Shown piece after piece: positions 20,636 to 48,091 of a stretch of DNA of 64,000 nucleotides. Source of the stretch: Actinostola sp. cb2023 (taxonomy: Eukaryota; Cnidaria; Anthozoa; Actiniaria; Actinostolidae); assembly GCA_033675265.1 (NCBI GenBank), contig JAUJYZ010000497.1, positions 1-64,000 on the forward strand. The letters run 5' to 3'. Each line of letters opens with the position of its first letter. The stretch's first letter is position 1. A program made the position numbers and the translations under genes. The notes below the pieces were generated by a model, which was given only the letters and a program-made list of their open reading frames with translations, did not search any database and was not told the origin of the DNA.

Positions 20636-20782
20636 TTTGATGACTGAAGCACAAATTGCAAATTGTCTTTTGTCCTGGTCTCCTTTCATTTGATTGGTTC
20701 ATTTTTTTTAAGAGTCTGCATTGTGATTGGTTAAAAAAATGATGCAATTAATAATCCAAATTAGTGAGATTAATATGCTTAA

Positions 20783-21095
20783 AGGCCTTGTTACACGGTG
20801 AAACTTTTTCGTGAAACGGTGCGAGACAGGTTTCACAAAGAGTTTCACCGTGTAACATGGTCGTTTTCAGGAAACTTTTTCGAATTTGCGTTGCGAGACA
20901 GTTTCATGAAAAGTAGAACTTCAATCTTTCTACTTTTTCGTGAAACTCGAAGCAAAAACGTTTCATAAAACCAGCCATTGCACCGTGTAACACACCTCGT
21001 GAAACTTGTTTCAGCAAACATGTTACACGGTGAAACTGTCTTGCACTGTTTCACGAAAAAGTTTCACGAAAAAGTTTCACCGTGTAACAAGGCCT
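20783..21095. mobile_element. 313-bp MITE, TIR AGGCCTTGTTACACGG, TSD TAA
   Basis: Ends AGGCCTTGTTACACGGTGAA and TTCACCGTGTAACAAGGCCT are exact inverted repeats, flanked on both sides by TAA (20780-20782 and 21096-21098). The interior reiterates gtttcacgaaaaagtttca in both orientations. A three-base T-A-A duplication with such ends is typical of PIF/Harbinger-derived MITEs. Non-coding. A relative is at 42029-42535. It sits about 100 bp outside the kinase transposon. Confidence 0.85.
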
Positions 21096-21193
21096 TAAAT
21101 CGCACCAGTTTTACCCAATCACATTGCAGAAAACACTTGCCGGATTTCGAAATGAATATGATTAAGTGTGACATCACTGCTGCTGTAGTACTA

Positions 21194-21821
21194 CGGCCGA
21201 GAGCAGTCACTCAAAGTCGAAATGCCGTTTACGCTAAAGACAAACTGACGAGTTCTTCTTTTGCGAATTTTCGCTTTATCGACTTTGACTTTGACTCACT
21301 TTTGCCTTTCGCTTTCATCGACTTTGCCTTTACTCACTTTCGTTTTATCGACTCTGCCTTTATTCACTTTCGCTTTGCTCACTTTGTCTTTGCTCACTTT
21401 CGCTTTGCTCACTTTGCCTTTACTCACTTTCGCTTTGCTCACTTTGTCTTTGCTCACTTTGTCTTTGCTCGCTTTCGCTTTGCTCACTTTGTCTTTGCTC
21501 ACTTTGTCTTTGCTCACTTTGTCTTTGCTCACTTTGTCTTTTGCTTTGCTCACTTTGTCTTTGCTCAGTTTGTCTTTGCTCACTTTCGCTTTGCTCACTT
21601 TGTCTTTGCTCACTTTGTCTTTGCTCGCTTTCGCTTTGCTCACTTTGTCTTTGCTCACTTTGTCTTTGCTCACTTTGTCTTTGCTCGCTTTCGCTTTGCT
21701 CACTTTGTCTTTGCTCACTTTGTCTTTGCTCACTTTGCCTTCACCGGCCGAGAACGGTCAATCAATCATCAATGGAATAAAATCAACAAGGCGTTACTAG
21801 TTTCACCACAGGTAACCCAAA
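21194..21821 (+). repeat. Left terminal inverted repeat of the kinase transposon
   Basis: 628 bp matching 32180-32780 in reverse complement. It has a unique outer part (about 21194-21260), a 15-bp-unit minisatellite (21261-21735; units ctttgtctttgctca, ctttcgctttgctca, ctttgcctttactca) and a unique inner part of ~85 bp (tcaccggccgagaacggtca to ggtaacccaaa). The unit order and number differ from the right end. Open frames such as FAHFVFAHF are repeat artefacts. The inner part lies 23 bp before the integrase ATG and probably carries its promoter. Confidence 0.9.
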
Positions 21822-21844
21822 TAACTATTACAGAACTTAACAAG

Positions 21845-24800
21845 ATGGCCGACTTCAACGTTATGGCCAACGAAGATGGTAAGAATAATATTACAAGTTC
21901 TTCTCTGTGATACTAAATTTGTATAACATGACATCTTTCAGGAATAAAGAACTTTGTGGAGGACCTCGTCCGTCAAAATAAATCTGTCCACGTCATCAGA
22001 GCTTATCTGAAGAAAACCATGAACCTTGTTTGGTCGTAAGATTAATCTGAATTATAAGCTTACAATTTTATTGATATGATGTTTGCATATATTTCTTTAT
22101 GATTATGATTTTATCTATTCTTAATATTAGAAATTTATTTTGTGTGGTTAGTTATAGTAGTTTGAGATTTTATTGTATATTTATATTGGGTTGGTAGGGG
22201 TGGTGATTGAATTAATTATAGATTAGGCATTTAGGGGTAATTAAGCTTCTATACTTTTTAGAATATTATTTTTTAGAATTTTTAGCACGTGCACGTTCTC
22301 ACGAGTTTTATTGTAAGCTCTTTTGTGTTCTACGTGAATAAATAAATTATTATTATTATTGTGTACATACACTTAGGCAAAGTACATTGAATAGATTTCA
22401 AAGAAAACATGGCATCACCCGCCATGACCGAAGTCTCCTTCCAAAGGATGTTATGTCTGCCATTAAGGTAGGTTTTTTCTTTGTGTATTGAGGGATCGTG
22501 TGGAAGGGTCTTTGTTTGGCACATTGCAGTACATGCACTTTTCTTTTTTTTACAAATCATAGACAGAAATGAATGGGGCTGGTAGTCAGCTGGGCTACAG
22601 AATGATGTGGACCAGACTCAGGAGACGTGGTATTCTGGCAACAAGGTAGCAATTACTTTTATACTTTATCCTGCGTAAGCCATTTAAGCCTCTGGCTTTG
22701 GCCTCACTTATGTAAATAACAGGATTCTTTTTCTAATAAATCAAATCAACTAATCAATAAAATCTATGATATTAGTAAATAGGGTGACAGGTCTCAATTG
22801 AAGAAATAGAAAACGAGGCAGCGTGCTCTATCGAGTTATAGAAGCACGCAGGAATTGGAAGAAGATGAGAGAAGTGCTAGGAGAAGCATATGAGGCGTAG
22901 CCGAGTGCTTCTCGCACTTCTCGAGTCTTCTTTCAATTCCCAAGTGCTTCTATAACTCGATAGATTACTGCTGCCAAGTTTTCTATTTCTTTTATAAAAT
23001 ACAAGTATGGGTGGTTGGTCCCAGTATGTCAATTAATAATTTATTTAATATTTTGTTTAAATATAGAGGTCAGTGGTGCAGCAGAATAGTAGCTACAGAA
23101 TAGTTCATACTCCTAATAGTTTTAGGAGTGTTACATTATTTTTAACTGTTAAAATGGTTGTGATTGCTAAAAGTATTTTATATTACTCTCTGTCAATGAA
23201 GAGATCAAGTAGCTGTGTGCATGAAAATTCTTGGGGCACAAAAACAAACTCCAACCCAGAAACGAAAACACCACCAAAATTATTTCTCCAAGGTACCGGT
23301 ATTCAATTTTACATTATTATTGTTTTTAACTATGATATATGTATAGAAATGAAAACTGATAGACAGAGTCTTTGAGCTAATTTGAACTCCACGCCACTGT
23401 AGTTGCCTCGGTTAAAGCTCAGTGGGTAGAGTACATGTCATGAAATCGGGGTGTCGTGGGTTCGAATCCTGCTCGAGGCGTCTGTTTTTTTCCGAACATT
23501 TGTTCGGTATATTCTCTATCAGTTTTCATTTCTATAGTTTTTAATGTGTGATTATTGTAAAATAAATCAACCAACATAAATTGTTCATAAATTTATTATT
23601 AAATATCAGCAGCGTGAAGGATATAATTTATGTTAATATTTTTTGAAGGGACCAAACTACACTTGGCATATAGATGGCCATGATAAATTGGCTAAGTGGG
23701 GTTTTTTACATACATGGGGCTGTGGATGGATTTAGCAGGAAAGTGCTGTGGCTGAACGTATTCGTAACTAACAAAGATCCATGGCTAACTGCAAAATATT
23801 TCATTGAAGCTGTGATAAAATATGAAGGTAAGCATATTAAGATCCCTTTTCAGAATTATTTCCGTCCAGAGTATGTTTCAAACCAAAAATACTGAAATTG
23901 TGCATATATGATGACATAATAGCCTAAAAGTAATGCAGCTCAAACTCTGATCTTCTGAAGGTTGTCCCACTAGAGTTAGATGTGATCCTGGAACAGAGAA
24001 TGGCATTATTGGTAAATCCCAAATGTTCTTGCGAAGAAATGGAGAAGACTCCTTAGCTGGTGAAAACAGCTATTATGAAGGCTCATCTGTTGTTAATCAG
24101 GTAATGCAGGAGCGTAGTATAAAAAAGTATAAAAACAACAACAATCAAAAAGAAACAAACATCTTTACCAAGAATTTAGGGGGGGGGGGGGGGCACATGC
24201 CCCACCCTCCCTACGCTAGTGAGGTATAAATATGTCATGATTGCATAACATATCTAGATATTAAAGTATACAATTTTGAACTTTGTACAGGTACATATTA
24301 CATACATGTAGCAATTTAGACTTTTCCACAGTTTGCTTCAATGACCACAAAACAATAGATCCAAGTCGAGGTTGAAGTAACCAAATACAGTAAATGTATA
24401 GAAACAGGAATGCCAACCGCAACATCAAACAATAATATTGTTAAATGACTTGTACTGAAAAATGGTATTGTATGTATTACCCATTCTAGATGTATATTTT
24501 TTTCCTTACTTGCAGCCAATTGAATCTTTCTGGAGGCATTTTAGAGAAAAGGGATTTCAGTTTTGGATAGATCAGTTTAAGGTGAAAATATAATATTAAC
24601 CAAATGAGATTATATACTTGTACATTTACAAACTTGCCAAATATTTGTTTGTGATTGAAGAATTTGGTGGAAAAAATGCAAATATATGTGACCTTGAAAT
24701 AATTTGTTCAACTGTTCACAATCAGTATAAAATTGGACATACTATTGCTGACACTCCCCCCTCCCCCTCAACGCTCAATGTTGATTGGACTGAACATCAG

Positions 24801-26226
24801 AATGTGAGTGAGTTGGGAATGAAAATTGTGAATGGATTCAAGGATTGTGAGAAACCTTGCAACATTGACTGGCAACATTGAAATGTGGGGAGGGGGATCA
24901 GGAAAATGATATTTTGGTGTACACCTACATATATTTGCATTTTTAGACTGATCAATTTGCAAAACTTTGATGATCAAAAGGTCACATACACCATTTTCCA
25001 CAAAGCTCTTCAATTGTATAACATATGTAATGAGAAGTGCGATGCCACCATACGTTAAAAATAAAACTGAGTATGGTACTAGATAGTTTCTAAAACTGAT
25101 TATTTTGGTGAGTGTTATTATATATGTTGTAGTTTAAAATGATCCAGTTCAATTTAAATTGAACCAAATATCATTTTAAACTACAACATTAAGTAGGTAA
25201 TAATAAGTAAGTTGTATCTGGTTATTTATAGTTCTCACTTCTCTAAGTGAAATAAAATGAAAATATACACTAACATTTACACTAATCATTTGCATACAAT
25301 GTAGCATTAAATCTGTCTGAAATTTTGATGTTTGTTGTCATTATAAGGGCATACAACAAAGTGGCAAATGGAATCCAGGAAATACTATACACAAGTAAGC
25401 ATTGCACCATTGGGTTAAGTTTACCAAGAGTATTGCAAAATACTAAAAAATAATTACAAAAATCATCTTTATTCAAGGTTATGTCTTCTGTATGTATACA
25501 TGCCACTACTCCAAATGGAAGCAAATGAAATGAAAGAAGACTGGAACCTACATAGGATCAGACTTCAGAGGGGCAAAGACAGACCTTGTGGAGTGCCTAA
25601 TGACTTATATGAGTTGCCAACTACAAAAGGTATTAAATAAATACTGTACTACTGTAACTATTTAATATTATATCCTCATTGAAATCATATTCATACATGT
25701 ACACGTATTATCATTCTTGAAACTCAACAAAGCATATTAATATAGTTCTCCTAGATGCAAAGTTCAAATAAAAATATTCTTCGCCCTGCAGCTGATCAGT
25801 TCATATACAGTTGATTTTGTAAACTAATATTCTATATATATACACTGTATGTTGTAGTTTATAATGATTCCTTGGTTCAATCTAAATTAAACCAGATCAA
25901 TTTAAATTGAACCAAAGATCATTTTAAACTACAACATATGTAATATTAGCTTTGTAAATATCAGTTTTAAACAGTGAATCTGTACATACATGTACAATTA
26001 AAATGTATGTATCTTTATAACAGGTGTGAAAGATCTGAAAAGGAAAGTGGTGTCATCTGATATCACCTTCATTGAGGAAAAGTTCCAGTTAAACCAGCAA
26101 TTGGTCTATCTTCCTGAATCATTTAAAAAAGAAGCTGATTCATATATGAAGAACACTGGTAGGGTGTTAGAGATGAAATCATCCACAGAAATCTACGAGG
26201 AACTAGTAATTCAGTTTAGTCAGTGA
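21845..26226 (+). CDS. Integrase-core (DDE) transposase-like gene, ~10 exons, one frameshift
   Basis: Exons with GT/AG borders and compatible phases: 21845-21878, 21942-22035, 22377-22467, 22563-22645, (unresolved near 23069), 23649-23827, 23961-24100, 24516-24581, (one unresolved), ~25478-25629, 26024-26226. The start reads MADFNVMANEDGIKNFVEDL. A helix-turn-helix-like N-terminus precedes GSQLGYRMMWTRLRRRGILA. The RNase-H-like core has all three acidic motifs: WHIDGHDKL (first Asp), RCDPGTENG (second Asp) and PIESFWRHF (Glu). The tail has EDWNLHRIR and ends ...EELVIQFSQ. This matches the animal 'integrase core domain' family by recall. Exon 23649-23827 is 179 nt where 178 are needed: one extra T in the T6 run at 23702-23707 shifts the frame between KLAKWG and FYIHGAVDG. 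The element at 23342-23536 sits in the preceding intron. AATAAA follows the stop at 26228. It would catalyse transposition of the surrounding element; this copy may be defective. Confidence 0.85.
22801..22990. mobile_element. Fold-back element in an integrase-gene intron
   Basis: aagaaatagaaaacgaggca...ttatagaagc and gcttctataactc...gttttctatttctt are reverse complements with scattered differences. The centre reads atgaggcgtagccgagtgct. Lies between integrase exons ending 22645 and starting 23649. Confidence 0.75.
23342..23536 (+). mobile_element. tRNA-like repeat element, copy 2, with perfect 21-bp terminal inverted repeats
   Basis: Starts tatagaaatgaaaactgata (23342-23362) and ends with its exact reverse complement (23516-23536). 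The interior holds the same tRNA-like module as copy 1 (23405-23480; here gttaaagctcagtgggtaga, with three extra bases in the D arm and a canonical ggttcgaatcc B box) and the shared flanks ctttgagctaatttgaactc and cgaacatttgttcggtatat. A tRNA module inside terminal inverted repeats is unlike an ordinary SINE, which has no inverted termini. It is inserted in the integrase gene. Confidence 0.75.
24178..24194. repeat. G homopolymer, about 14-16 bp
   Basis: A G run in an integrase-gene intron, followed by cacatgccccaccctcccta. Confidence 0.8.
25131..25190. mobile_element. Palindromic mini-element, copy 1
   Basis: tgttgtagtttaaaatgat...caatttaaattga...atcattttaaactacaaca: a ~60-bp near-perfect palindrome inside an integrase-gene intron. 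A closely related copy lies at 25852-25938. Confidence 0.8.
25852..25938. mobile_element. Palindromic mini-element, copy 2
   Basis: tgttgtagtttataatgatt...caatttaaattgaaccaaag...ttttaaactacaacat. Same termini as the copy at 25131 with a ~25-bp longer centre. In the last integrase-gene intron. Confidence 0.8.
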
Positions 26227-26477
26227 TAATAAAGAAGGTAATAGTTTGAATCAGCTTGCCTTAATGCTACCCAATTTATATTGAAAGTCATTTGGGAATT
26301 GACATTTTTGCATGTTTCAGATATGTTTTCTTTTCTTGAGAAAAAAGAAATTAAATAAATTAAAATGTTATATATAGGGAACGTTATTAACATTGATCTG
26401 AAATTTAGGTACATGTATAATTAGCATGCAATGGGTTTATTGTTTCATAAAGTGGTTTCCTTTTGCCCTCTTTATCT
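26227..26477. terminator. Convergent 3' region with two polyadenylation signals
   Basis: Only 251 bp separate the two convergent stop codons. AATAAA on + at 26228-26233 begins one base after the integrase stop, and AATAAA on - (TTTATT at 26436-26441) lies 37 bp after the kinase stop. Each gene therefore has its own signal in the shared spacer. Confidence 0.7.
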
Positions 26478-29400
26478 TTACCAGACAGCAAGTTGTGATT
26501 GCAATTCTAATTCTGGTAAAAGTTCTGTAAATGCAGGCCTCTGTTTTGCAGGCTGAAAGCAATCATCTATGATCTTCTGGCTTGCTTGAGGAATGTTGGG
26601 AAAGGTGGGATAGCAGCCATGTTCTATGGCTACTCTCACCTCTTTGTAGTTTTTTCCTCTCCAAGCTGGCACTCTTGCATATACTTCTCCAATGATCACG
26701 GCAAAGGAATATACGTCCACAGCTGTTGTAGGTCTTTCTCCATGAATTTGGTCTATGTGCTGATATGCAAGAGTACCAGCATTGGATCCTCCAATATTTG
26801 TTGTTATGACCAAGTCCTTTAATTTGCTTATGCCAAAGTCGCAAATGACCGGTTTGTAGGACCCTTCCTCAATCTAAAAGAAAAAAAGAAAAGAAAAAAA
26901 TATTAAACATATATTTACATACATGTAAATTCCAAGTTTGGAAAAGTTTGTAAATAAATTAAACAGAATAATTAAAATATAGTACATACGATGATGTTTG
27001 CAGGTTTGAGGTCTTGATGAATAACCCCTCTTTCATGTAAATATGCCATGCCTTGGGCAACATGGTATATTACAAAGCCATTGTATTTTTCATCAATAGG
27101 CTGAAAAATTAAGACATTATCTCTGTTTAGTTGCTTGATTAATTAAAGACATGTAATACACCAAAGTACTGTACCTGGTGTTTTTTGGATGTTGCCAGTC
27201 CAACTGCATATGAAAGATTCATCCCTTTGATGTAATTGGTAACAATATTAATGTCTGTATCAGTTATTAAACATCCAAATAACATCAAGATACTTGGATG
27301 TCTCAAGCGCCTGTTTTGTAAGAAATATAAAATCAATTACTGGTAACACATACTGGCCTGGCATTGTTTGAAAGGAAATCTGGTCATAATTGACTTCAAC
27401 TTCAACTCAAATCTTACAACTTACCTACAAATATTTACTTCACTGAGATCAGGTTCTCCATAACCTTTTGGTATTTGCTTCACGGCCACCTGTAAACCTT
27501 TCCATAGGCCTTTATAGACTGACCCATATTGGCCTTTGCCTATCATATCCTTGATTGTTAATTCCTCTTCCTCTATACATACTGTTGCAAGATCTGCAAG
27601 TTCAGTTATTTAATAATAATAATATAATTTAAAACTATCAATGTGTCTTTTTAAAATCTAGTTTACAAACTTAGGTAAACTAATTGGTGACACCTTAATC
27701 TACAGAAATTAAAATAAAATAAAATATATTAAGCAATTATTGGATGAGGCTGTCAGTATGATATGTCTGCATAATTCTTCATATCATAAGTTAGCTGAAT
27801 CCAGTAATAATTATTGTTTTATTATTCATTCAAAATATATAACATAAAAACATGATTAAACTGATTTTTCTTTATTGAATTATAACTTAAGACAGTGTTT
27901 ACAAACTTGTACAAGAGTACAGCCAAAACAATTGTATGACGATGACGTCTGGTCATGGAGAATTGACCAGGGGTCCTCAGCCAATCAGAAACGAGTATAT
28001 ATTTTGAATGAATAATACTATATAATATAATATATTATTGTTAGTTAATTTTATAAGCAGGTTTTACCACTGAAGGTGCTCCTGTTGTAAAATTTAGAAA
28101 TCAATGTGACATATATTCACAAGCCAGAGAAATCTGAATTACATGTAATACTGGTACGTATTATTACAAATTAGTATAACGCAATAAATAAATTATTATT
28201 GTTATAATTACCTTCTTTCTTAAACATAATCTCTGAATCCATGCGAACATGATCTCTTGATTTATATGCGGGTATGCTAAGTTGTGAAGCCTTATCCCAC
28301 AATGGAGTACCCAGTTGCTTGACAGATCCCCCTTTCTCCCTTGCCAAGCAGGGTAACAATGGAGTGGCTGAGCGACCACGAATTGCCATTTCAGAACACA
28401 CATGGAGAGGTTTTTTATGTACCGGTACATTGTGTGATATATGTACCATATCTTCTTTCATTCACTTCAATTTCAACACCCTTTCCCAAGCACAACTTTT
28501 TGTTCAGAGATGGTCTACTTCCTGCTAAATTCTGATGGCTGCCACTTGCAATTGAGCTCCTCTGCCACTGGTCTGAGTCTTCCTTTGACTGTTGTTTGTC
28601 TGATACATGTACCTCATCTAAAAACATGAATATAAAAATCAATAATTTTTATTATTTAATTAATCAAATTCCAAAAATCACTCTAATGGCTATATCCATA
28701 ATAACTATAGTACTGGTAATATTATCCAGACTGAGACAAAACAAAATCTCACATTTTGATGATAGTGTTGATGATTTTGACAGAACTGTTTGTTCTTTTT
28801 CAGTTGTCTCCTACATTAAGAGAAAAGTTTTTTTTATAAAATGAATACAATAATTGGACAAAACCTAATATACATGTATATATATATGATAAGATCTAGA
28901 CAAAGATGTACATGCATTTGCATGCAAGTACTTTTAATATGAATGAGCATATATATAATCAGTTCACATTATTCAGTGGCGTAGCTATAGTGCACATATT
29001 ACACAACCCTTCACAAGTAGGTTTTTCAGTGCATGTTTTCAAGTTTTTGAGTGCACGTGCCTGCAAATTTAAAAGTACTGCATGGATACGCCCCTGTTAT
29101 TAATAATGATAATAGTGTAATACCTTAGAGAAATAACCAATAGATGTAACATTATGAAGTTGTGCATCATTCTGAATTTTGTATATGAACTTTTTACGCG
29201 TATTGTCAGTTATGGAGATTTTGACAAATTCTGGTAGTTCACTGATATTGGCCTCCTCAAAGGCATTATAGCAGGCCAGTTTCACATCTGTCAGTCTTGG
29301 TACGCTTGTGATCTTCAAAAAAAAAAGTGACACAAAATATTATTGAAGATAAAACGAAAATATGAAACTGTTGAGAGTAACAAGGTGGGTGGAGAAATAA

Positions 29401-32145
29401 AAGGAATTACCACATTTGGAATATACATGAACACAATACAAATATGTACATGCAATTACATTTATATATTCATAAAATAAAACCCAGCTTGCACAAAATC
29501 AGTTTAACATTTGTACCTTCAATGGAATGTGCCCCTTCTCAATTTGAATATGTTTTTGTCTAGAGAAACACATTCTGGAAGCATGAAAAGTCTACAAATG
29601 AAAAAAATAAAATGAAGTAAATCATAATTGAGGTGCAGAATTGAGGTTTTCCTGCATGCAAAAATATGCATCACAGACTTACAGAAAACTAATTAGGGCC
29701 CTTCAACAAGGGATAAATTGTCTGAGATGGGGTATCAATACAACCCCCTCTCCCTCCCACCCCCTCTCTCTCCCTCCCTCCCTCCCCCCCCCCCCCTCTC
29801 TCCCCCCCCCCCCCTACCTCCCTCCCCCTCCAACAACACTGGTGCACATCTCTGACAACTTTGTCAACTTGATTGATTTGACCCATATAATTCCTTTAAA
29901 ATCTTGTCAATTCTTAGAATTATTGATATGTACATGTACATTGCATATGTACACACAAATTTTACCTTTGTTTTGGTGTTGAGCACATTTTGCTTTGTAG
30001 ATCCCTGTTGAAAGGAAACTCCTTTTTTCCGCCACTCTTCAGCCCTTTTCCAGTCTGTCCACAGAAAAAACATTTACTCTACAATCATTAAGTACTATTA
30101 TTTTAGTTTGTCAGTTGACAGTTTTATAATGTAATCAAAGCATCTCAACACTAGTATTTAGTCTTTTTCATCACCTTTATAAAAAGATTATTATCACATT
30201 ATTGAAATATTAAGAAAAGGTTATATTATATTATATTGAATATTAAAAAATAATATATAATTTATTGCTTTGTAATATTTTACTTGCAGTAATTATGATT
30301 ACACAGTGATTTTGAATGATTGATATATAATATATAATGAGTTGTAAGACATTATATGTTTATGTTATCATTTACTAACAGTTATAATGATTCACACACA
30401 ACTGCCTCAGACTGGCTCATGGTAAGTAAGTGTCATACTCAGTTTCATACCTCAAAATATTAATTAGCAACTCCCATATTAATACTGTATGAGTGTAAAA
30501 AATAATAAAATGAACATAACCTACACAAGAATACAATTTGTCATCTATGTTACCCTGCGAGCAGAGCTAGAGGTTCCTTTTTGTTTTTGGCTTTTACCTT
30601 GCTGCATGTTCTTGTAGTTCAAAGCCAAAACAAAAAGCAGTTAAGTAAAAGTAAAATACTCAGTGAAAGTGGAGAGACGAAAAGAAACCTCTGCTCATTT
30701 TGTAGGGTACATTGATATCTATATGTATACGTATTAATTATAAAATCATGTATATGCATAATAAAGGTTATATCAAATAAAAATCTAGAACATTTTACCA
30801 TTCTCTAAATTTCCCACATCAGTACGTAATCCTAAAATAAAGTTTAAAAAATAAGTAAGTAAATAGAAAGTACAAAATTAATATTATGATACATGTTACA
30901 TTTACTTTGCAAATTATACCCAATGTTAACATTGTCGATTTACTTTGGTTTTGTATCAATCACAGCAATGGGAGGGAGAAATTTCAGAGAGACAGCAATT
31001 TAACTGTTAATATTGCAGTTAACAATAATTTACTATTTATAGAGATCATTTTTTCATGTCAGACGACAACATCTCTATTTGCTTCCAATCTGGGTGTGGC
31101 ACATGCTCTATTTGACCCCTACATGTATGCTATTTTAAAACAGAAATGCTAAATATTTCATGCCTGATCACACCCCTAAAACAGATGAGGAGCATTTAAT
31201 TATGCCCCTTTCACATGGCCTCTGCACTGCCTGCAAGTCCCACACAACCCCCATCCTCTTAGCTTGGGCCAAGGAGATATATATACTACATTGTAATTTT
31301 ATATTTACCTCCACCAGCACCTTTTTTCATAGAGAAAAATTCTTTCTGTTTATAATCTGTATGGAAATAAAATAGAAAGAGTATTGGTTGAGAAGAACTG
31401 CAGGTCAAGGAATGTTTTTATAACAAACCACAATTACCACATCATCCTTTATATTTTTAATACTTAACTATAATGGCAGCACATTATGGGAGTCATTTAG
31501 GTGAAAGAAATTTCAGACAGACAATTTTATATTTACCTCCACCAGCACCTTTTTTAAGAGTTAAATATTCTTTCTGTTTATCTGTATAAATAAAATAGAA
31601 AGAGAATTGGTTGAAAAGAATTGCAGGTCAAGGAATGTTTTAATGCACATGTATTAATTCCTTCATTTTAATAATTATTGATGTACTGTTTTATGTCCTG
31701 TATCGATCATTTCATAAATGAGTCTCATACTAGACGTCTAGAGGTTTATTTTCAGTGTAAAACATACATGACCAGCAGAGTGACAATATTAATTTAATAA
31801 GAACTTTTTAATATAAGCTTATTACACTTCATAACTAATATTACCAAGTAACTTCAGTTTGTCTGAGTGAAATTTCACTCCTATGACGTCCAAGTCCTTG
31901 CTATCTATCAGAACAAAGTTGTTGATAGTGTTTATCTGAAAAATATAATTGATAATATTTTGATATATTTTGTGCACTCTGTTGATATATATGAACGGGA
32001 GTTAGCCACGCCCTGCCAAATTACACATTATGGAGATCACAAGCAACCTTACTTTGTTTTCTTTGAAAAGTCTTGGTATTTCTTTTTGGATAAAGTCGAA
32101 GCAAGACCAAAATTCATCCGTCAATGGAGCCAATGGCAATGCCAT
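26478..32145 (-). CDS. Transposon-borne protein kinase gene, 15 exons, 619 aa, intact frame
   Basis: Exons on the minus strand in order: 32145-32053, 31935-31845, 31581-31537, 31356-31309, 30831-30799, 30054-29966, 29591-29517, 29312-29124, 28810-28753, 28617-28447, 28367-28212, 27593-27425, 27310-27175, 27100-26990, 26873-26478. All have GT/AG borders and matching phases, and together give 1860 nt with one terminal stop. The join 28447/28367 is the least certain. Residues ~1-62 (MALPLAPLTDEFWSCFDFIQ... DLDVIGVKFHSDKLKLLG) look SAM-like by eye. A ~90-residue conserved-looking block (exons 29591-29124) is unrecognised, and a Ser/Gln-rich linker follows. The C-terminal ~265 residues are a kinase: glycine loop GKGQYGSVYKG, VAVKQI lysine, catalytic loop VIHQDLKPANI (HQD for HRD), DFG, DVYSFAVIIGE, and RPAFTELLPEL. 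This resembles tyrosine-kinase-like Ser/Thr kinases. The usual APE is replaced (GTLAYQHIDQI). Probably active; substrate unknown. Confidence 0.88.
29750..29832. repeat. CT/C-rich low-complexity tract in a kinase-gene intron
   Basis: ccctctccctccc units with two C homopolymers of about 12-14 bp. The proline-rich and glycine-rich open frames through it are artefacts. Confidence 0.9.
31309..31581 (-). repeat. Tandemly duplicated exon in the kinase gene
   Basis: The exon at 31581-31537 encodes DKQKEYLTLKKGAGG and the exon at 31356-31309 encodes DYKQKEFFSMKKGAGG. Both are phase 1-1 and both are followed by the same intron start GTAAATATAAA. Intron sequence is duplicated as well (gtattggttgagaagaactg near 31381 and gaattggttgaaaagaattg near 31602, each followed by caggtcaaggaatgttt), so the duplicated unit is ~230-240 bp. 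Confidence 0.85.
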
Positions 32146-32179
32146 TTTCCTGAAAGATTGGCGGGAATTCATTCCAGAT

Positions 32180-32780
32180 TTTGGGTTACCTGTGGTGAAA
32201 CTAGTAACGCCTGGTTGATTTTATTCCATTGATGATTGATTGACCGTTCTCGGCCGGTGAAGGCAAAGTGAGCAAAGACAAAGTGAGCAAAGACAAAGTG
32301 AGCAAAGCGAAAGTGAGTAAAGGCAAAGTGAGCAAAGACAAAGTGAGCAAAGACAAAGTGAGCAAAGCGAAAGTGAGTAAAGGCAAAGTGAGCAAAGCGA
32401 AAGTGAGCAAAGGCAAAGTGAGCAAAGCGAAAGTGAGCAAAGGCAAAGTGAGCAAAGCGAAAGTGAGTAAAGGCAAAGTGAGCAAAGCGAAAGTGAGTAA
32501 AGGCAAAGTGAGTAAAGACAAAGTGAGTAAAGACAAAGTGAGCAAAGACAAAGTGGGAAAAGCGAAAGTGAGTAAAGACAAAGTGAGCAAAGAGAAAGTG
32601 AGTAAAGGCAAAGTCGATGAAAGCGAAAGGCAAAGAGGCAAAAGTGAGTCAAAGTCAAAGTGGCTGAAGCGAAAGTGAGTCAAAGTCAAAGTCGATAAAG
32701 CGAAAATTCGCAAAAGAAGAACTCGTCAGTTTGTCTTTAGCGTGAACGGCATTTCGACTTTGAGTGACTGCTCTCGGCCG
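32180..32780 (-). repeat. Right terminal inverted repeat of the kinase transposon
   Basis: 601 bp, reverse complement of 21194-21821. Inner part 32180-32265 (tttgggttacctgtggtgaa...), minisatellite about 32262-32690 with units gcaaagacaaagtga and gcaaagcgaaagtga, outer part to 32780. The kinase ATG (32145) lies 34 bp beyond the inner edge, mirroring the 23 bp at the other end. Confidence 0.9.
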
Positions 32781-32925
32781 CCGTAGCTGCTGGGAACCAA
32801 TCAGATTGCAGTAAACACCAATGATTTCAAAAAAGGAATTATTAAATTAAACACTATACCTTGGTTAACTCGTGGACTACTTATGATAACCTCGTTGTCT
32901 TTGTCTTTGTACAGGGATTGCAAAA

Positions 32926-33245
32926 TCTCGGCATCGGAAAATATATCGGAAGACTAGAGATTTCGGAATCTCATCGGAAAATATCTCGGAAAACTAGAGA
33001 TTTCGGAATCTCATCGGAAAATATCTCGGCGTATAAGACGAGATTTCGGAATCTCATCGGAAAAGTCTCGGAAGACTATAGATTTCGGAATCTCATCGGA
33101 AAATATCTCGGAAGACTAGAGATTTCGGAATCTCATCGGAAAATATCTCGGCGTATAAGACGAGATTTCGGAATCTCATCGGAAAAGTCTCGGAAGACAA
33201 TAGATTTCGGAATCTCATCGGAAAATATCTCGGAAGACTATCTGT
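32926..33245. repeat. Tandem repeat, unit about 40 bp
   Basis: About eight units of tcggaatctcatcggaaaat plus atctcggaagactagagatt, with variants (gcgtataagacg). It lies about 145 bp outside the right end of the transposon. The 128-codon open frame through it is a repeat artefact. Confidence 0.9.
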
Positions 33246-36079: not shown

Positions 36080-37550
36080 ATATTGCCCCCATGGGTACGT
36101 TATGTTGTGGCCAAGCACGGGCACTAGTGAGGATTTAATATATTTAACATATTTCAATGATATTTTCAAAACAAAAAAGCCAGTCGTACCAACGTCCTTA
36201 GTGGGCCTCTATCGCCCACTTTTTGAAATATCCAATGTACCGTAAAACGAAAAAGATATCGATCAAATTAAACATGGTGTTTACAAAACGAAATATAGAT
36301 CCAACAACGTAGCCAGCTGAATCAACAACTCTACCAGTTTGGTTTTTGGCTTTTGACCGATTACAGTTTTGATTTCGTATCCTCTCAGTTTCTTTCCAAG
36401 TCGTTGGGAGTGAAAAGAGCGGGAACAAAACGTACCTAGTTAATCTGAACTGTTGTTATGGCAACCAGACATTAAGCAAGCTACCACTGAACTCGTATGA
36501 AAATATAAATGAAATACTGACCCCCCAATTACAACAATATTATAGACAAGGAAGCATACCTCTTATATCGCATCATCGTGTATGTCAAGAATATGTTTTT
36601 CATTGGCCTACGCGCTTTTGCCTAATTACATATAACGCTGGATGCACACACGTCTGACACATCTTAACTTTCTTACGAAATCGAATCATAAGGGTTTTTG
36701 GGTGCTGCTTTGAACAATTAGTTGGACTTTTTAAAATTGGTGTATTCATTGTTGATACGCATGCGCAGTGGAAAGCACTATGAGTGTTCGCTGTTCACCA
36801 GGCTTGTATTTGTGTAAAGACTGTGAAGGCTAGACAGTCATTTCTAGTCAGTCTAGAAGCTTACGAATTGACCGTAAGTCGGAATAGTACAAATTAGTTA
36901 TTCGTGCAAGAAGTAATTTCTTGAAAAGGAAGCAGATCTAAACGAGGTAAGAACTGTACTGCCGCGGTTGCCGGACAACGGTACAGTTTTTCCTAGTAGC
37001 TTTACAACAGTATACAAACGAAATGATTTCACCTTCTATACGCGCCAGCCAGAGTTCAAATAAAAGCGCTCAACGCATTGTCTCATCATGTTAGGTCATG
37101 AATTCGCTTGACACATGTTAGCGAATATTACTCATTGAAAAGGAATGAATTAATAGAAAGCATCACAATATATGAAAGTAACACTATAGCCTGGAGTTAA
37201 ATTTGGAAAATTATTTACCATGAAATTGACCATACATTCGAAACTAATGCATCTGAAACTCAGTGCTATATATATTTTTCAAATGTTTTTGCCAACATGC
37301 ACCCCAAACGGGGTGATCAGTGTTTACTGACCTAAGCGAAACAGCCACAGTTTCTAGTTACTGGTACTTTTATTGTAGCCTAAAGCGCTTTCAATATATT
37401 TATGTTTAAAGCTCGGAAATGCGAAATAGATCAAGGTCGTAGCCAGTTAATTGAATGGCATGGAAGGGCATGGTTAGAGACGAAGGAAAGAAGCAAACAA
37501 GCACACGAACTCGGGGGGTTTTCCTTCCTCAAAAAAACATGAACTAATAT
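36080..37550. other. No gene recognised
   Basis: A 76-codon open frame at 36198-36428 (-) has a hydrophobic C-terminal stretch but no recognisable domain; I leave it uncalled. The rest shows no exon or repeat. Confidence 0.4.
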
Positions 37551-37552
37551 GA

Positions 37553-40500
37553 GATGAGAGTTATGTGTATAGAATATAGAATGTAGTAAGAACTGAGTGT
37601 GAGAGGTGAGATGAGTGTTGGGTGTAAAGAATATAGAATGTAGTAAGAACTGAGTGTGAGAGGTGAGATGAGTGTTGGGTGTAAAGAATATAGAATGTAG
37701 TAAGAACTGAGTGTGAGAGGTGAGATGAGTGTTGGGTGTAAAGAATATAGAATGTAGTAAGAAGTGAGTGTGAGAGTCGTGTCCCCACTAGTGAGATGAG
37801 TGTTGGGTCGGTATAGAATATAGAATGTAGTAAGAAGTGAGTGTGAGAGTCGTGTCCCCACTAGTGAGATGAGTGTTGGGTGTATAGAATATAGAATGTA
37901 GTAAGAAGTGAGTGTGAGAGTCGTGTCCCCACTAGTGAGATGAGTGTTGGGTGTATAGAGTATAGAATGTAGTAAGAAGTGAGTGTGAGAGTCGTGTCCC
38001 CACTAGTGAGATGAGTGTTGGGTGTATAGAGTATAGAATGTAGTAAGAAGTGAGTGTGAGAGTCGTGTCCCCACTAGTGAGATGAGTGTTGGGTGTATAC
38101 AGTATAGAATGTAGTAAGAAGTGAGTGTGAGAGTCGTGTCCCCACTAGTGAGATGAGTGTTGGGTGTATAGAGTATAGAATGTAGTAAGAAGTGAGTGTG
38201 AGAGTCGTGTCCCCACTAGTGAGATGAGTGTTGGGTGTATAGAATATAGAATGTAGTAAGAAGTGAGTGTGAGAGTCGTGTCCCCACTAGTGAGATGAGT
38301 GTTGGGTGTATACAGTATAGAATGTAGTAAGGAATGATGCAAGAGTCGTGTCCCCACTAGTGAGATGAGTGTTGGGTGTATACAGTATAGAATGTAGTAA
38401 GGAATGATGCAAGAGTCGTGTCCCCACTAGTGAGATGAGTGTTGGGTGTATAGAATATAGAATGTAGTAAGAAGTGAGTGTGAGAGTCGTGTCCCCACTA
38501 GTGAGATGAGTGTTGGGTGTATAGAATATAGAATGTAGTAAGAAGTGAGTGTGAGAGAGTCGTGTGAGTCCACTAGTGAGAATGAGTGTTGGGTGTATAG
38601 TCGTGTCCACACTATAGACGATGTAGTAATAGAATGTAGTGAGTGAGTGTGAGAGTCGTGTCCCCACTAGTGAGATGAGTGTTGGGTGTATAGAATATAG
38701 AATGTAGTAAGAAGTGAGTGTAAGAGTCGTGTCCCAACTAGTGAGATGAGTGTTGGGTGTATAGAATATAGAATGTAGTAAGAAGTGAGTGTGAGAGTCG
38801 TGTCCCCACTAGTGAGATGAGTGTTGGGTGTATAGAATATAGAATGTAGTAAGAAGTGAGTGTGAGAGTCGTGTCTCCACTAGTGAGATGAGTGTTGGGT
38901 GTATAGAATATAGAATGTAGTAAGAAGTGAGTGTGAGAGTCGTGTCCCCACTAGTGAGATGAGTGTTGGGTGTATAGAATATAGAATGTAGTAAGAAGTG
39001 AGTGTGAGAGTCGTGTCCCCACTAGTGAGATGAGTGTTGGGTGTATAGAATATAGAATGTAGTAAGAAGTGAGTGTGAGAGTCGTGTCCCCACTAGTGAG
39101 ATGAGTGTTGGGTGTATAGAATATAGAATGTAGTAAGAAGTGAGTGTGAGAGTCGTGTCCCACTAGTAGATGAATAGAATATAGAATGTAGAAGAAGTGA
39201 GTGTGAGAGTCGTGTCCCCACTAGTGAGATGAGTGTTGGGTGTATAGAATATAGAATGTAGTAAGAAGTGAGTGTGAGAGTCGTGTCCCCACTAGTGAGA
39301 TGAGTGTTGGGTGTATAGAATATAGAATGTAGTAAGAAGTGAGTGTGAGAGTCGTGTCCCCACTAGTGAGATGAGTGTTGGGTGTATAGAATATAGAATG
39401 TAGTAAGAAGTGAGTGTGAGAGTCGTGTCCCCACTAGTGAGATGAGTGTTGGGTGTATAGAGAATGTAGTAAGAAGTGAGTTGAGGTGTCCACTAGTGAG
39501 ATGAGTGTTGGGTGTATAGAATATAGAATGTAGTAAGAAGTGAGTGTGAGAGTCGTGTCCCCACTAGTGAGATGAGTGTTGGGTGTATAGAATATAGAAT
39601 GTAGTAAGAAGTGAGTGTGAGAGTCGTGTCCCCACTAGTGAGATGAGTGTTGGGTGTATAGAATATAGAATGTAGTAGTGAGTGTGAGAGTCGTGTCCCC
39701 ACTAGTGAGTGTGATAGAATGTGTGAGAGTGGTGAGAGTCGTGTCTCCACTAGTGAGATGAGTGTTGGGTGTACAGAATATAGAATGTAGAAGAAGTGAG
39801 TGTGAGAGTCGTGTCCCCACTAGTGAGATGAGTGTTGGGTGTATAGAATATAGAATGTAGTAAGAAGTGAGTGTGAGAGTCGTGTCTCCACTAGTGAGAT
39901 GAGTGTTGGGTGTATAGAATATAGAATGTAGTAAGAAGTGAGTGTGAGAGTCGTGTCCCCACTAGTGAGATGAGTGTTGGGTGTATAGAATATAGAATGT
40001 AGTAAGAAGTGAGTGTGAGAGTCGTGTCCCCACTAGTGAGATGAGTGTTGGGTGTATAGAATATAGAATGTAGTAAGAAGTGAGTGTGAGAGTCGTGTCC
40101 CCACTAGTGAGATGAGTGTTGGGTGTATAGAATATAGAATGTAGTAAGAAGTGAGTGTGAGAGTCGTGTCCCCACTAGTGAGATGAGTGTTGGGTGTATA
40201 GAATATAGAATGTAGTAAGAAGTGAGTGTGAGAGTCGTGTCCCCACTAGTGAGATGAGTGTTGGGTGTATAGAATATAGAATGTAGTAAGAAGTGAGTGT
40301 GAGAGTCGTGTCCCCACTAGTGAGATGAGTGTTGGGTGTATAGAATATAGAATGTAGTAAGAAGTGAGTGTGAGAGTCGTGTCCCCACTAGTGAGATGAG
40401 TGTTGGGTGTATAGAATATAGAATATAGAATGTAGTAAGAAGTGTTGGGTGTATAGAATATAGAATGTAGTGAAGTGAGTGTGAGAGTCGTGTCCCCACT

Positions 40501-41345
40501 AGTGAGATGAGTGTTGAGTGTATAGAATATAGAATGTAGTAAGAAGTGAGTGTGAGAGTCGTGTCCCCACTAGTGAGATGAGTGATGAGTGTGAATATAG
40601 AATGTAGTAAGAAGTAGTGAGAGAGTCGTGTCCCCACTAGTGAGATGAGTGTTGAGTGTATAGAATATAGAATGTAGTAAGAAGTGAGTGTGAGTGTCGT
40701 GTCCCCACTAGTGAGATGAGTGTGTTGGGTGTATAGAATATAGAATGTAGTAAGAAGTGAGTGTGAGAGTCGTGTCCCCACTAGTGAGATGAGTGTTGGG
40801 TGTATAGAATATAGAATGTAGTAAGAAGTGAGTGTGAGAGTCGTGTCCCCACTAGTGAGATGAGTGTTGGGTGTATAGAATATAGAATGTAGTAAGAAGT
40901 GAGTGTGAGAGTCGTGTCCCCACTAGTGAGATGAGTGTTGGGTGTATAGAATATAGAATGTAGTAAGAAGTGAGTGTGAGAGTCGTGTCTCCACTAGTGA
41001 GATGAGTGTTGGGTGTATAGAATATAGAATGTAGTAAGAAGTGAGTGTGAGAGTCGTGTCTCCACTAGTGAGATGAGTGTTGGGTGTACAGAATATAGAA
41101 TGTAGTAAGGAATGATGCAAGAGTCGTGTCTCCACTAGTGAGATGAGTGTTGGGTGTATAGAATATAGAATGTAGTAACAAGTGAGTGTGAGAGTCGTGT
41201 CCCCACTAGTGAGATGAGTGTTGTGTGTATAGAATATAGAATATAGTAAGAAGTGAGTGTGAGAGTCGTGTCCCCACTAGTGAGATGAGTGTTGTGTGTA
41301 TAGAATATAGAATGTAGTAAGAAGTGAGTGTGAGAGTCGTGATCC
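37553..41345. repeat. Satellite array, 71-bp unit, about 3.8 kb
   Basis: Head-to-tail units containing gtgagatgagtgttgggtgt, atagaatatagaatgtagta and gagagtcgtgtccccacta, 71 bp each, over fifty copies. The first three units (37553-37760) are a 57-bp variant lacking the tcgtgtccccacta block and carry aactgagtg. Units with ggaatgatgcaagag replacing gaagtgagtgtgagag occur at about 38330, 38400 and 41110. Scattered damaged units near 38560-38650, 39160-39200, 39470-39490, 39670-39740 and 40420-40620. All open frames here are artefacts. Confidence 0.97.
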
Positions 41346-41366
41346 CATTAGCAGTACTGCAATAAA

Positions 41367-44969: not shown

Positions 44970-46440
44970 ATTCTCATAATGCCATATTGACTCCTTCACC
45001 GACAACTTTGGATTGAAATATCCTGCAATCGTATAAACTAACTCAGTTAGCATTGTTACAAGGAATTAACATTTTTCAATAGAATCAGAGCTTTTGTTAA
45101 CATAAAACTGTTGTAGCTCATAAAATAATAATTCACTGATAACAATAGTGAAGTTAAATTTACAATTATATACCCAACAACAACGGTCTCCAGAGAGCAC
45201 TTAGTACTACAACGCTCTAATGATCAAAATCATATCCATTGTTTCACGTTAATTATTTATCTTACTTTATTTTAATTCATGGATTATGCGTAATCCACGA
45301 GTTATAGGGATGACATTGGGACAATTTTGGGATCACTCACTCACTCGGCTGTAAACTTTCATTACGTTGCCGCTGAAGTACATCGCAGGCTCACAACTTG
45401 AGGGGGTGGGGGTGGGGGAAGGCCGGGTGGAAATCCACGAGGCCTTTGATTATATACCTTGGCAAAGTTCTTGAAATACTGGGATATCTAATGTTGGCTT
45501 GGTTGCTTCAAATTTTTCATTGATAGTTTGTTTCACCTTTCAAAGTTTTTTTTTTTTTTACCTTTCAACTTTTAATTAGAACATATATGAATCGAGGGGA
45601 GCTTGGGTCCGAGAGGCGTTTAATTTCGTATGAGTGCCGGGAAATTTACGAAACGGAGTTATCAAGAGTTATGATCACGGTACGGAATCGAAGCTAGACA
45701 TCTATTCAACCAATCACAGCGCGCAAAATCGTTACTCAACCAATCAGAATGCTTGGTTGGACACGGCACGGTTACTGGTTACTCTTCTGGTAGTTTCTGG
45801 TCAATCCAAGTATTTACAAGACTTCTATAAATATTGTTAGGCACTTAGAATCATATTCACTCTACTACACAAACTCTCGTTGTTACCACAGCAGTTTGGT
45901 CTCACGCTCTGAAGTAATAGCTCGGGTCCCGAAATAGACGTCCCACGCCCCCGGCGCTTATTCAAAACTCAGCCCCGTTGACCCGGCATTTAATCGAGCC
46001 CGGCGTTAATTCAGGGCCCGGCGCCGTCTAATCGAGAAAACACGGCCATGGAGATCATTTTAATTATGATAAGTGGACGCGGACACCAAATTAAAACGAA
46101 GTTGGAACGCCGGTTATTTTTAATGTCAAAAACCGATTGGTACATTTCAGTCATGAACTGCTCTAATCCCTGTATGTTGAATTCCTTTTTACAGTGGCGA
46201 ATGGCAATTCTTTTTTTAAGTTTAATCTTTTTGTGCTATTTTTGTATTTATTTGATGAATTAACGGATAAAAAGACAACTGATATTGTTTTTTTATCTTG
46301 GACTCTGCTTCGATCAGGACGAATCTACGTAATGGGATTTATGAATAGAGATTTGAGTTGCGCACTTTGAATTCTTTAGAAACTGATATATATAGCACCT
46401 CACATTTTCGTTATCTGTAGGCGTAGAAGTTTCTCGATTT
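44970..46440. other. No gene recognised
   Basis: Contains a ggggtgggggtggggg G-rich stretch (about 45402-45418) and a T run (about 45549-45560). Short open frames at 45634-45840 and 46048-46263 are not recognisable. Confidence 0.4.
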
Positions 46441-48091
46441 CTTCTCTTCTCTTCTCTTCTCTTCTCTTCTCTTCTCTTCTCTTCTCTTCTCTTCTCTTCT
46501 CTTCTCTTCTCTTCTCTTCTCTCTCTTCTTCTCTTCTCTTCTCTTCTCTTCTCTTCTCTTCTCTTCTCTTTCTCTTCTCTTTCTTCTTCTCTTCTCTTCT
46601 CTTCTCTTCTCTTCTCTTCTCTTCTCTTCTCTTCTCTTCTCTTCTCTCTTCTCTTCTCTTCTCTTCTCTTCTCTTTCTCTCTTCTCTTCTCTTCTCTCTT
46701 CTCTTCTCTTCTCTTCTCTTCTCTTCTCTTCTCTTCTCTCTCTTCTCTTCTCTTTCTCTTTCTCTTCTCTTCTCTTCTCTTCTCTTCTCTTCTCTTCTCT
46801 TCTCTTCTCTTCTCTTCTCTTCTCTTCTCTTCTCTTCTCTTCTCTTCTCTTCTCTTCTCTTCTCTTCTCTCTCTTCTCTTCTCTTCTCTTCTCTTCTCTT
46901 CTCTTCTCTTCTCTTCTCTTCTCTTCTCTTCTCTTCTCTTCTCTTCTCTTCTCTCTCTTCTCTTCTCTTCTCTTCTCTTCTCTTCTCTTCTCTTCTCTTC
47001 TCTTCTCTTCTCTTCTCTTCTCTTCTCTTCTCTTCTCTTCTCTTCTCTTCTCTTCTCTTCTCTTCTCTTCTCTTCTCTCTCTTCTCTTCTCTTCTCTTCT
47101 CTTCTCTTCTCTCTCTCTCTTCTCTTCTCTTCTCTTCTCTTCTCTTCTCTTTCTCTTCTCTTCTCTTCTCTTCTCTTCTCTTCTCTTCTCTTCTCTTCTC
47201 TTCTCTCTTCTCTTCTCTTCTCTTCTCTTCTCTTCTCTTCTCTTCTCTTCTCTTCTCTTCTCTTCTCTTCTCTTCTCTTCTCTTCTCTTCTCTTCTCTTC
47301 TCTTCTCTTCTCTTCTCTTCTCTTCTCTTCTCTTCTCTTCTCTTCTCTTCTCTTCTCTTCTCTTCTCTTCTCTTCTCTTCTTCTCTTCTCTTCTCTTCTC
47401 TTCTCTTCTCTTCTCTTCTCTTCTCTTCTCTTCTCTTCTCTTCTCTTCTCTTCTCTTCTCTTCTCTTCTCTTCTCTTCTCTTCTCTTCTCTTCTCTCTCT
47501 TCTCTTCTCTTCTCTTCTCTTCTCTTCTCTTTCTCTTCTCTTCTCTTCTCTTCTCTTCTCTTCTCTTTCTCTTCTCTTCTCTTCTCTTCTCTTCTCTTCT
47601 CTTCTCTTCTCTTCTCTTCTCTTCTCTTCTCTTCTCTTCTCTTCTCTTCTCTTCTCTTCTCTTCTCTTCTCTTCTCTCTTCTCTTCTCTTCTCTTCTCTT
47701 CTCTTCTCTTCTCTTCTCTTCTCTTCTCTTCTCTTCTCCTTCTCTTCTCTTCTCTTCTCTTCTCTTCTCTTCTTCTCTTCTCTTCTCTTCTCTTCTCTTC
47801 TCTTCTCTTCTCTTCTCTTCTCTTCTCTTCTCTTCTCTTCTCTTCTCTTCTCTTCTCTTCTCTTCTCTCTTCTCTTCTCTTCTCTTCTTCTCTTCTCTTC
47901 TCTTCTCTTCTCTTCTCTTCTCTTCTCTTCTCTTCTCTTCTCTTCTCTTCTCTTCTCTTCTCTTCTCTTCTCTTCTTCTCTTCTCTTCTCTTCTCTTCTC
48001 TTTCTCTTCTCTTCTTCTCTTCTCTTCTCTTCTCTTCTTCTCTTCTCTTCTCTTTCTCTTCTCTTCTCTTCTCTTCTCTTCTCTTCTCTCT
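46441..48091. repeat. (TTCTC)n pentanucleotide tract, about 1.65 kb
   Basis: Almost pure TTCTC on +, i.e. GAGAA on -, with scattered TTTCTC, TTCTTC and CTCTC variants. Strict pyrimidine/purine strand asymmetry. The three ~600-codon RREEKRREEK frames on the minus strand exist because the 5-bp repeat lacks stops in all frames; they are not proteins. Confidence 0.98.

Follow-up and report, generated by a model that had tools for sequence, protein, structure and literature searches.

Overall structure of the element

The 64,000-nucleotide stretch of DNA from the vent anemone Actinostola sp. cb2023 analyzed in this study (hereafter the window) is contig C1343 in the genome-wide searches, in which C-numbers denote contigs of the Actinostola sp. 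cb2023 assembly (424,152,321 bases in 1594 contigs). An element at approximately 21186-32785 consists of terminal inverted repeats (TIRs) of about 0.6 kb, an integrase gene on the plus strand and a convergent kinase gene on the minus strand. The 3' ends of the two genes are approximately 250 bp apart, and their first coding exons sit just inside the respective TIRs. Six-frame Pfam scans of positions 21000-32900 showed no third gene at E <=0.1.

The left TIR (21192..21822, plus strand) begins with the outer motif TACGGCCGAGAGCAGTCACTC, which is followed by an array of a 15-bp minisatellite and by the inner motif GGCCGAGAACGGTCAATC at 21746. The right TIR (32177..32785, minus strand) is composed of TACGGCGGCCGAGAGCAGTCACTC, the minisatellite array and an inner motif ending at 32255. 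The order is therefore the same in both TIRs: outer motif, variable minisatellite, an inner motif similar to the first (compare GGCCGAGAGCAGTCACTC with GGCCGAGAACGGTCAATC) and then a unique stretch. The arms at 21538-21821 and 32180-32463 are 94% complementary over 284 nt, and much of the remainder is the minisatellite array. The outer 30-mer GGCCGAGAGCAGTCACTCAAAGTCGAAATG was found exactly at 21195 (plus) and 32779 (minus), with no third site in the window at up to 3 mismatches; the count in 100 shuffles was 0. A candidate target-site duplication (TSD), GCTGCTG, lies at 21179..21185, 6 nt outside the TACGG terminus, and at 32786..32792.

A preliminary description of this DNA had reported two inverted repeats of about 600 bp that enclose two convergent multi-exon genes. 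The repeats are real, as shown by the complementary arms and the paired 30-mer, and so are the genes, which match PF24764 (integrase) and Pkinase/PK_Tyr_Ser-Thr (kinase). The limits given there were 21194..32780; the ends are located slightly outside, at 21186/21192 and 32785.

Two small features adjoin the element. The stretch just to its left (20770-21105) is palindromic and MITE-like, with GTTACACGGTGAAAC on both sides by eye, and short repeats spaced 40/82 bp lie beside its right end (32939-33240).

The integrase gene

The integrase (transposase) gene (21845..26226, plus strand) was modelled in 11 exons under the guidance of the metagenomic protein P0120: 21845-21878, 21942-22035, 22377-22467, 22563-22645, 23202-23292, 23649-23827, 23961-24100, 24516-24581, 25348-25394, 25478-25629 and 26024-26226. 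All introns are GT-AG. The protein matched PF24764 (8.8e-38) and, among the NCBIfam profiles, IS3 (9.2e-11) and IS481 (4.9e-9), each below its own cut-off. The D, D and E columns, which we take to be the catalytic residues, are invariant in alignment A1, and these residues lie within WHIDG, CDPGTEN and NQPIES in the frames of the window. In the copies on C424 and C89 (see below) the frame of 392 amino acids has no internal stop. The gene claimed in the preliminary description is thus real, but its frame in the window is shifted by 1 nt in a T run, a change absent from C424 and C89.

The ends of the element were compared among 12 paired elements of the genome. The left end starts with TAC in all 12 (TACAG in C294), and the right end is closed by CCGTA in 11, the exception being C520, the right end of which is damaged. 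An IS3/IS481-like DDE transposase and TA..TA termini (TAYGG..CCRTA), by which IS3EU elements are recognized, were both found here. On the basis of the PF24764 match, the affinity to IS3/IS481 and the TACGG..CCGTA ends, the element is probably an IS3EU transposon. A tRNA-like stretch, possibly a SINE, was noticed by eye within an integrase intron (window ~23390-23480).

The kinase gene

The kinase gene (26478..32145, minus strand) was modelled in 12 exons, all introns of which are GT-AG. The four kinase-domain exons (27593-27425, 27310-27175, 27100-26990 and 26873-26478; 26478..27593, minus strand) match PF00069/PF07714 and contain the kinase motifs GKGQYGSVYKG (glycine loop), VAVK (Lys), HQDLKPAN (HQD) and DFG. 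The eight upstream exons (32145-32053, 31935-31845, 31581-31537, 30831-30799, 30054-29966, 29312-29124, 28810-28753 and 28617-28212) were modelled from splice sites and phase and are less certain; matches to a second family (see below) back the model at residues 8-65 and 102-180. The first 253 residues showed no Pfam match at E <=1.

The protein closest to the window kinase is P0001, which is annotated in Actinostola sp. cb2023. It matched PF00069 (1.9e-36), and no match to the alpha-kinase profile PF02816 was found at E <=1. The nearest solved sequences are the CTR1, Src/Abl-like, RAF and RIPK1 kinases. No animal other than Actinostola was named at >40% identity among the matches listed (119 in one search and the best 120 of 293 in another); P0002, P0003, P0076 and P0092, which exceed 40%, are metagenome proteins or generic kinase entries.

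The preliminary description had called this kinase gene complete. In the window copy, however, a short patch that lies upstream of the domain exons breaks the frame. The four kinase-domain exons themselves have no interruption and do not differ between the window, C424 and C89. C424 and C89 are free of the patch, and the breaks in their kinase frames are single-T differences in T runs. The frame is accordingly uninterrupted over all 12 modelled exons in none of the three full-length copies. The single-T breaks of C424 and C89 could be assembly errors; the assembly was made from PacBio and Illumina reads and polished (PMC10803348). In the window at 31295-31644, a kinase exon (DKQKEYLTLKKGAGG / DYKQKEFFSMKKGAGG) and its intron flank are tandemly duplicated in compatible phase.

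Other copies in the genome

A search with the 107-bp outer repeat gave 35 matches genome-wide. The complete unit of TIR, integrase, kinase and TIR was found on three contigs, namely the window, C424 and C89. These copies are 99.73-99.82% identical outside gaps, and their flanks differ. Between C424 and C89, no substitution was observed in 3048 bases of coding exons (preliminary boundaries), as against 8 in 7306 other internal bases and 13 in the repeats; their three single-base length differences are in T runs of kinase exons. A fourth copy, at C587, is 99.8% identical over 8.0 kb and has neither outer end. The protein P0001 belongs with this copy, and its origin from the window contig was rejected.

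Exact direct repeats adjacent to the ends were found in 4 of the 12 paired elements: GAGAAAG (C89), CGTGTCT (C1416) and CATTCAC (C1092), all 7 bp, and GCTGAT (C870), 6 bp. For C1092 the outermost left end and the right end were compared; two further left ends with the same flank are located between them. In C424 and the window, the repeats are 7 bp long and stand 3-6 nt away from the ends. In the remaining six elements the TSD is weak or absent: C294 and C681 have partial repeats of 5 bp and C875 one of 4 bp, and none was found in C1540a, C1540b and C520. The flanks of C1540a and C1540b are inverted duplicates of each other.

In most of the shorter pairs with the ends of this family (~1 to 3.8 kb), no more than short terminal fragments of the genes are present. 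C294, with 15.5 kb between matching ends, was rejected as a paired copy of the two genes, as only short end pieces of both were matched in it. The long unrelated open reading frames at C294:33611-49144, helicase-like and reverse-transcriptase-like by eye, are probably nested insertions.

One might suppose that a host kinase lies beside an integrase by coincidence, bracketed by two independent short repeat elements. Short elements that share these ends are indeed numerous in this genome. The complete unit is nevertheless present on two further contigs, 99.7-99.8% identical and in different flanks, and the diverged family at C814 (see below) has the same design together with a 6-bp TSD. Chance bracketing by solo repeats was rejected on account of the C424 and C89 copies, and we consider this explanation hardly conceivable. 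The proposal of the preliminary description that the locus is a DNA transposon carrying an integrase and a kinase is borne out by these two copies and by the TSD-like repeats; it had named solo repeats without any spanning copy as the contrary case, and spanning copies were found, though many short same-ended elements exist. We concluded that the element, with its two genes, has been mobile recently. Its mechanism of movement would be that of the IS3EU family: the DDE integrase would bind the long TIRs, move the unit and make a target duplication of 6-7 bp.

A second family and purifying selection

A kinase search of the Actinostola genome gave 154 matches. A diverged family (family B, as distinct from family A of the window) was found at C814, C999 and C332, in which the segments of kinase and integrase likewise converge. 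C814 and C999 are probably one insertion, since they have flanks in common; C332 is a separate, partial locus. C814 has TACGGTGGCCGAGAGC at both ends (TACGG) and a 6-bp repeat, GGTCTG. The proteins of families A and B are ~50% identical (29-66% in the matched stretches, 49-66% in the domain exons), and blastn between the elements gave one 44-bp match in all. The middle of the family B integrase showed no match to the window integrase.

For the kinase, 275 codons compared between A and B, with some exon-edge residues counted twice, gave a pS of 0.81 (saturated) and a dN of 0.35. For the integrase, 122 codons in the C-terminal exons gave a pS of 0.73 and a dN of 0.45. Since dN is low against pS in both cases, the exons of both genes are under purifying selection.

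Recurrence of the kinase-integrase pairing

The genome appears to contain a large IS3EU-like population, with 864 first-look candidates for PF24764. In an integrase search, 105 of 903 candidates were scored as matches; most are genes in a single frame, with identities of 33-43%. Seven of 129 typed kinase matches are located within 2.5 kb of one of these 105, and all seven are convergent (C217, C1234, C242, C673, C778, C973 and C735); for pairs of whatever orientation up to 5 kb apart, the expected number was 0.32. The seven pairs are not independent events, because they comprise only two kinase families, C and D. C217 has an integrase of 401 amino acids and a kinase frame of 721, and C242 an integrase piece of 318 and a kinase frame of 277. 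At C803 and C1053, the match to kinase C covered only its non-catalytic N-terminal portion, which by eye is convergent with an integrase match and within 2 kb of it. Intronless families thus also hold a convergent kinase opposite the integrase. A candidate convergent pair 3.7 kb apart was noticed by eye at C318, among the best 150 of the 864 PF24764 candidates.

The preliminary description had asked whether kinase and integrase are always paired. In the Actinostola genome they are paired in 7 of the 105 listed integrase matches, with two more next to an N-terminal part only, and 96 of the 105 have no nearby kinase-gene match among the matches listed. In a kinase tree of 99 sequences, built without anemone host kinases, A, B and P0002 group together with a support of 0.999 and C and D with 1.0; the support for the union of the two groups is 0.755.

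Outside this genome, no kinase was significantly matched in the 3-4 kb covered on three Cycloclasticus-MAG contigs with PF24764-like integrases, and scans of viral contigs found no locus. These symbiont MAG contigs are probably sponge host DNA.

It is worth noting that the kinase could be a passenger, namely a host kinase that entered an IS3EU element on one occasion and now simply travels with it, without any role in the element. Its kinase domain is ordinary, being related to CTR1, Src/Abl-like, RAF and RIPK1, its introns are like those of a host gene, and short elements that lack the kinase domain also show TSDs. A neutral passenger, however, should decay. In two families that have diverged by ~50%, the kinase is retained with a dN of 0.35 while silent sites are saturated, and a convergent kinase has also been retained in intronless families. 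This interpretation is therefore disfavored and, in the Actinostola genome, largely contradicted; we regard it as improbable. Since diverged families show the pairing again and purifying selection is observed, the kinase is very probably a selected gene of the element, and probably a long-term one, rather than an accidental pick-up. Of the two possibilities left by the preliminary description, captured cargo and the element's own kinase, the latter is favored.

Comparison with known IS3EU elements

The preliminary description had considered protein kinases foreign to such elements. This is not quite right, as fungal IS3EU elements that carry an alpha-kinase have been reported (PMC12730594). 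In the TET+ fungal elements described there, the transposase and the alpha-kinase are oppositely oriented with a TET/JBP gene between them, and the rust elements have TAYGG..CCRTA ends and a 6-bp TSD. The window element resembles them in its ends (those of the rust elements), its IS3EU transposase and its opposite kinase gene. In contrast, its kinase is a canonical protein kinase (PF00069/PF07714), and no TET/JBP gene was found between the genes by six-frame Pfam scans at E <=0.1, which could miss a gene split over short exons; the intergenic gap is only ~250 bp.

IS3EU/GingerRoot elements are described as having a transposase related to IS3/IS481, TA..TA termini and a TSD of usually 6 bp (PMC10045372). 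The first two features are shared by the window element, whereas the TSD in Actinostola is 7 bp in three elements (C89, C1416 and C1092) and 6 bp in two (C870 and C814). In that article, IS3EU is mentioned 22 times and a kinase never. The fungal 'Intons' are IS3EU-derived and encode 5-6 conserved proteins (Kapitonov, meeting report PMC3520738). They are comparable to the window element in IS3EU ancestry and extra conserved proteins, but they are fungal, their conserved proteins number 5-6 and the extra ones are not named in the passage on them. According to the same report, DNA transposons from several superfamilies carry proteins of host origin that are believed to control transposition. In the literature searched, which leaves out most subscription journals, no animal IS3EU element was described as carrying a canonical protein kinase.

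Alpha-kinases also occur in Actinostola, the genome of which gave 47 matches to PF02816. At one of four loci examined, C1415, an alpha-kinase frame of 446 amino acids (5.1e-35) is convergent with an IS3EU-like integrase, as in the fungal elements (PMC12730594). The first frame of this integrase is 294 amino acids long, scores 20.8 bits with PF24764 (below the cut-off) and is 31% identical to the window integrase over 240 amino acids (E 1e-28). The two genes are flanked by 217-bp inverted repeats, 93% identical. TATGGTGGCCGATAGC, located outside the left repeat, resembles the outer motif found in the other families; the shuffle value, 0.09, is a guide only, as the pattern was set after most of the stretch had been seen. 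The right end, which showed no outer motif, is probably damaged in this copy. No TSD was identified. At the other loci, no integrase was detected in 4.5 kb on the convergent side (C1019 and C298) or in 7 kb, 2.4 kb of it on the convergent side (C483). The alpha-kinases of C483 and C1415 have, by eye, an N-terminal stretch in common (GPREFVPF... DILAGE.GPSCK...).

Possible role of the kinase

Eukaryotic cut-and-paste transposons are usually viewed as one transposase and passive DNA. We consider it likely that the window element is instead a recently mobile IS3EU cut-and-paste transposon with a long-held, selected kinase, which most likely tunes transposition. Its second gene, which is read from the other TIR towards the integrase gene, would encode the element's own selected protein kinase. 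This kinase would most likely phosphorylate the transposase or host proteins of the nucleus, DNA repair or silencing, and the phosphorylation might tune when or whether transposition succeeds. That the kinase regulates transposition is what we infer.

A different function for a selected kinase can be envisaged. The kinase might act on host signalling, for instance in innate immunity or cell death, so that the element is tolerated or benefits the host, with no direct effect on transposition. Its relatives are found among signalling kinases (RIPK/RAF-like), and the long N-terminal part of the type C kinase is partly Ig-like by eye. The N-terminal parts of types A and C, on the other hand, which had been suspected by eye to be alike, showed no significant similarity. 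We regard this possibility as rather unlikely.

A broader form of the preferred interpretation, in which the kinase tunes transposition, would make the kinase the core second component of an animal IS3EU branch, in a slot that takes either a canonical kinase or an alpha-kinase unrelated to it; the kinase activity itself would then be needed, for self-control of transposition. This form is put forward tentatively, as possible rather than probable. If one slot holds both protein kinases and an alpha-kinase, the usefulness of a kinase could be told apart from chance gene capture. With a lineage in which a signalling enzyme is repeatedly retained next to the transposase, it becomes possible to test whether transposons can sense or determine the state of the cell in which they jump.

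Elsewhere in the window, a tandem repeat of ~3.8 kb with strong G skew occupies 37550-41350, and a pyrimidine-rich tract with a GC skew of -0.78 and an AT skew of -0.80 lies at 46001-48000.
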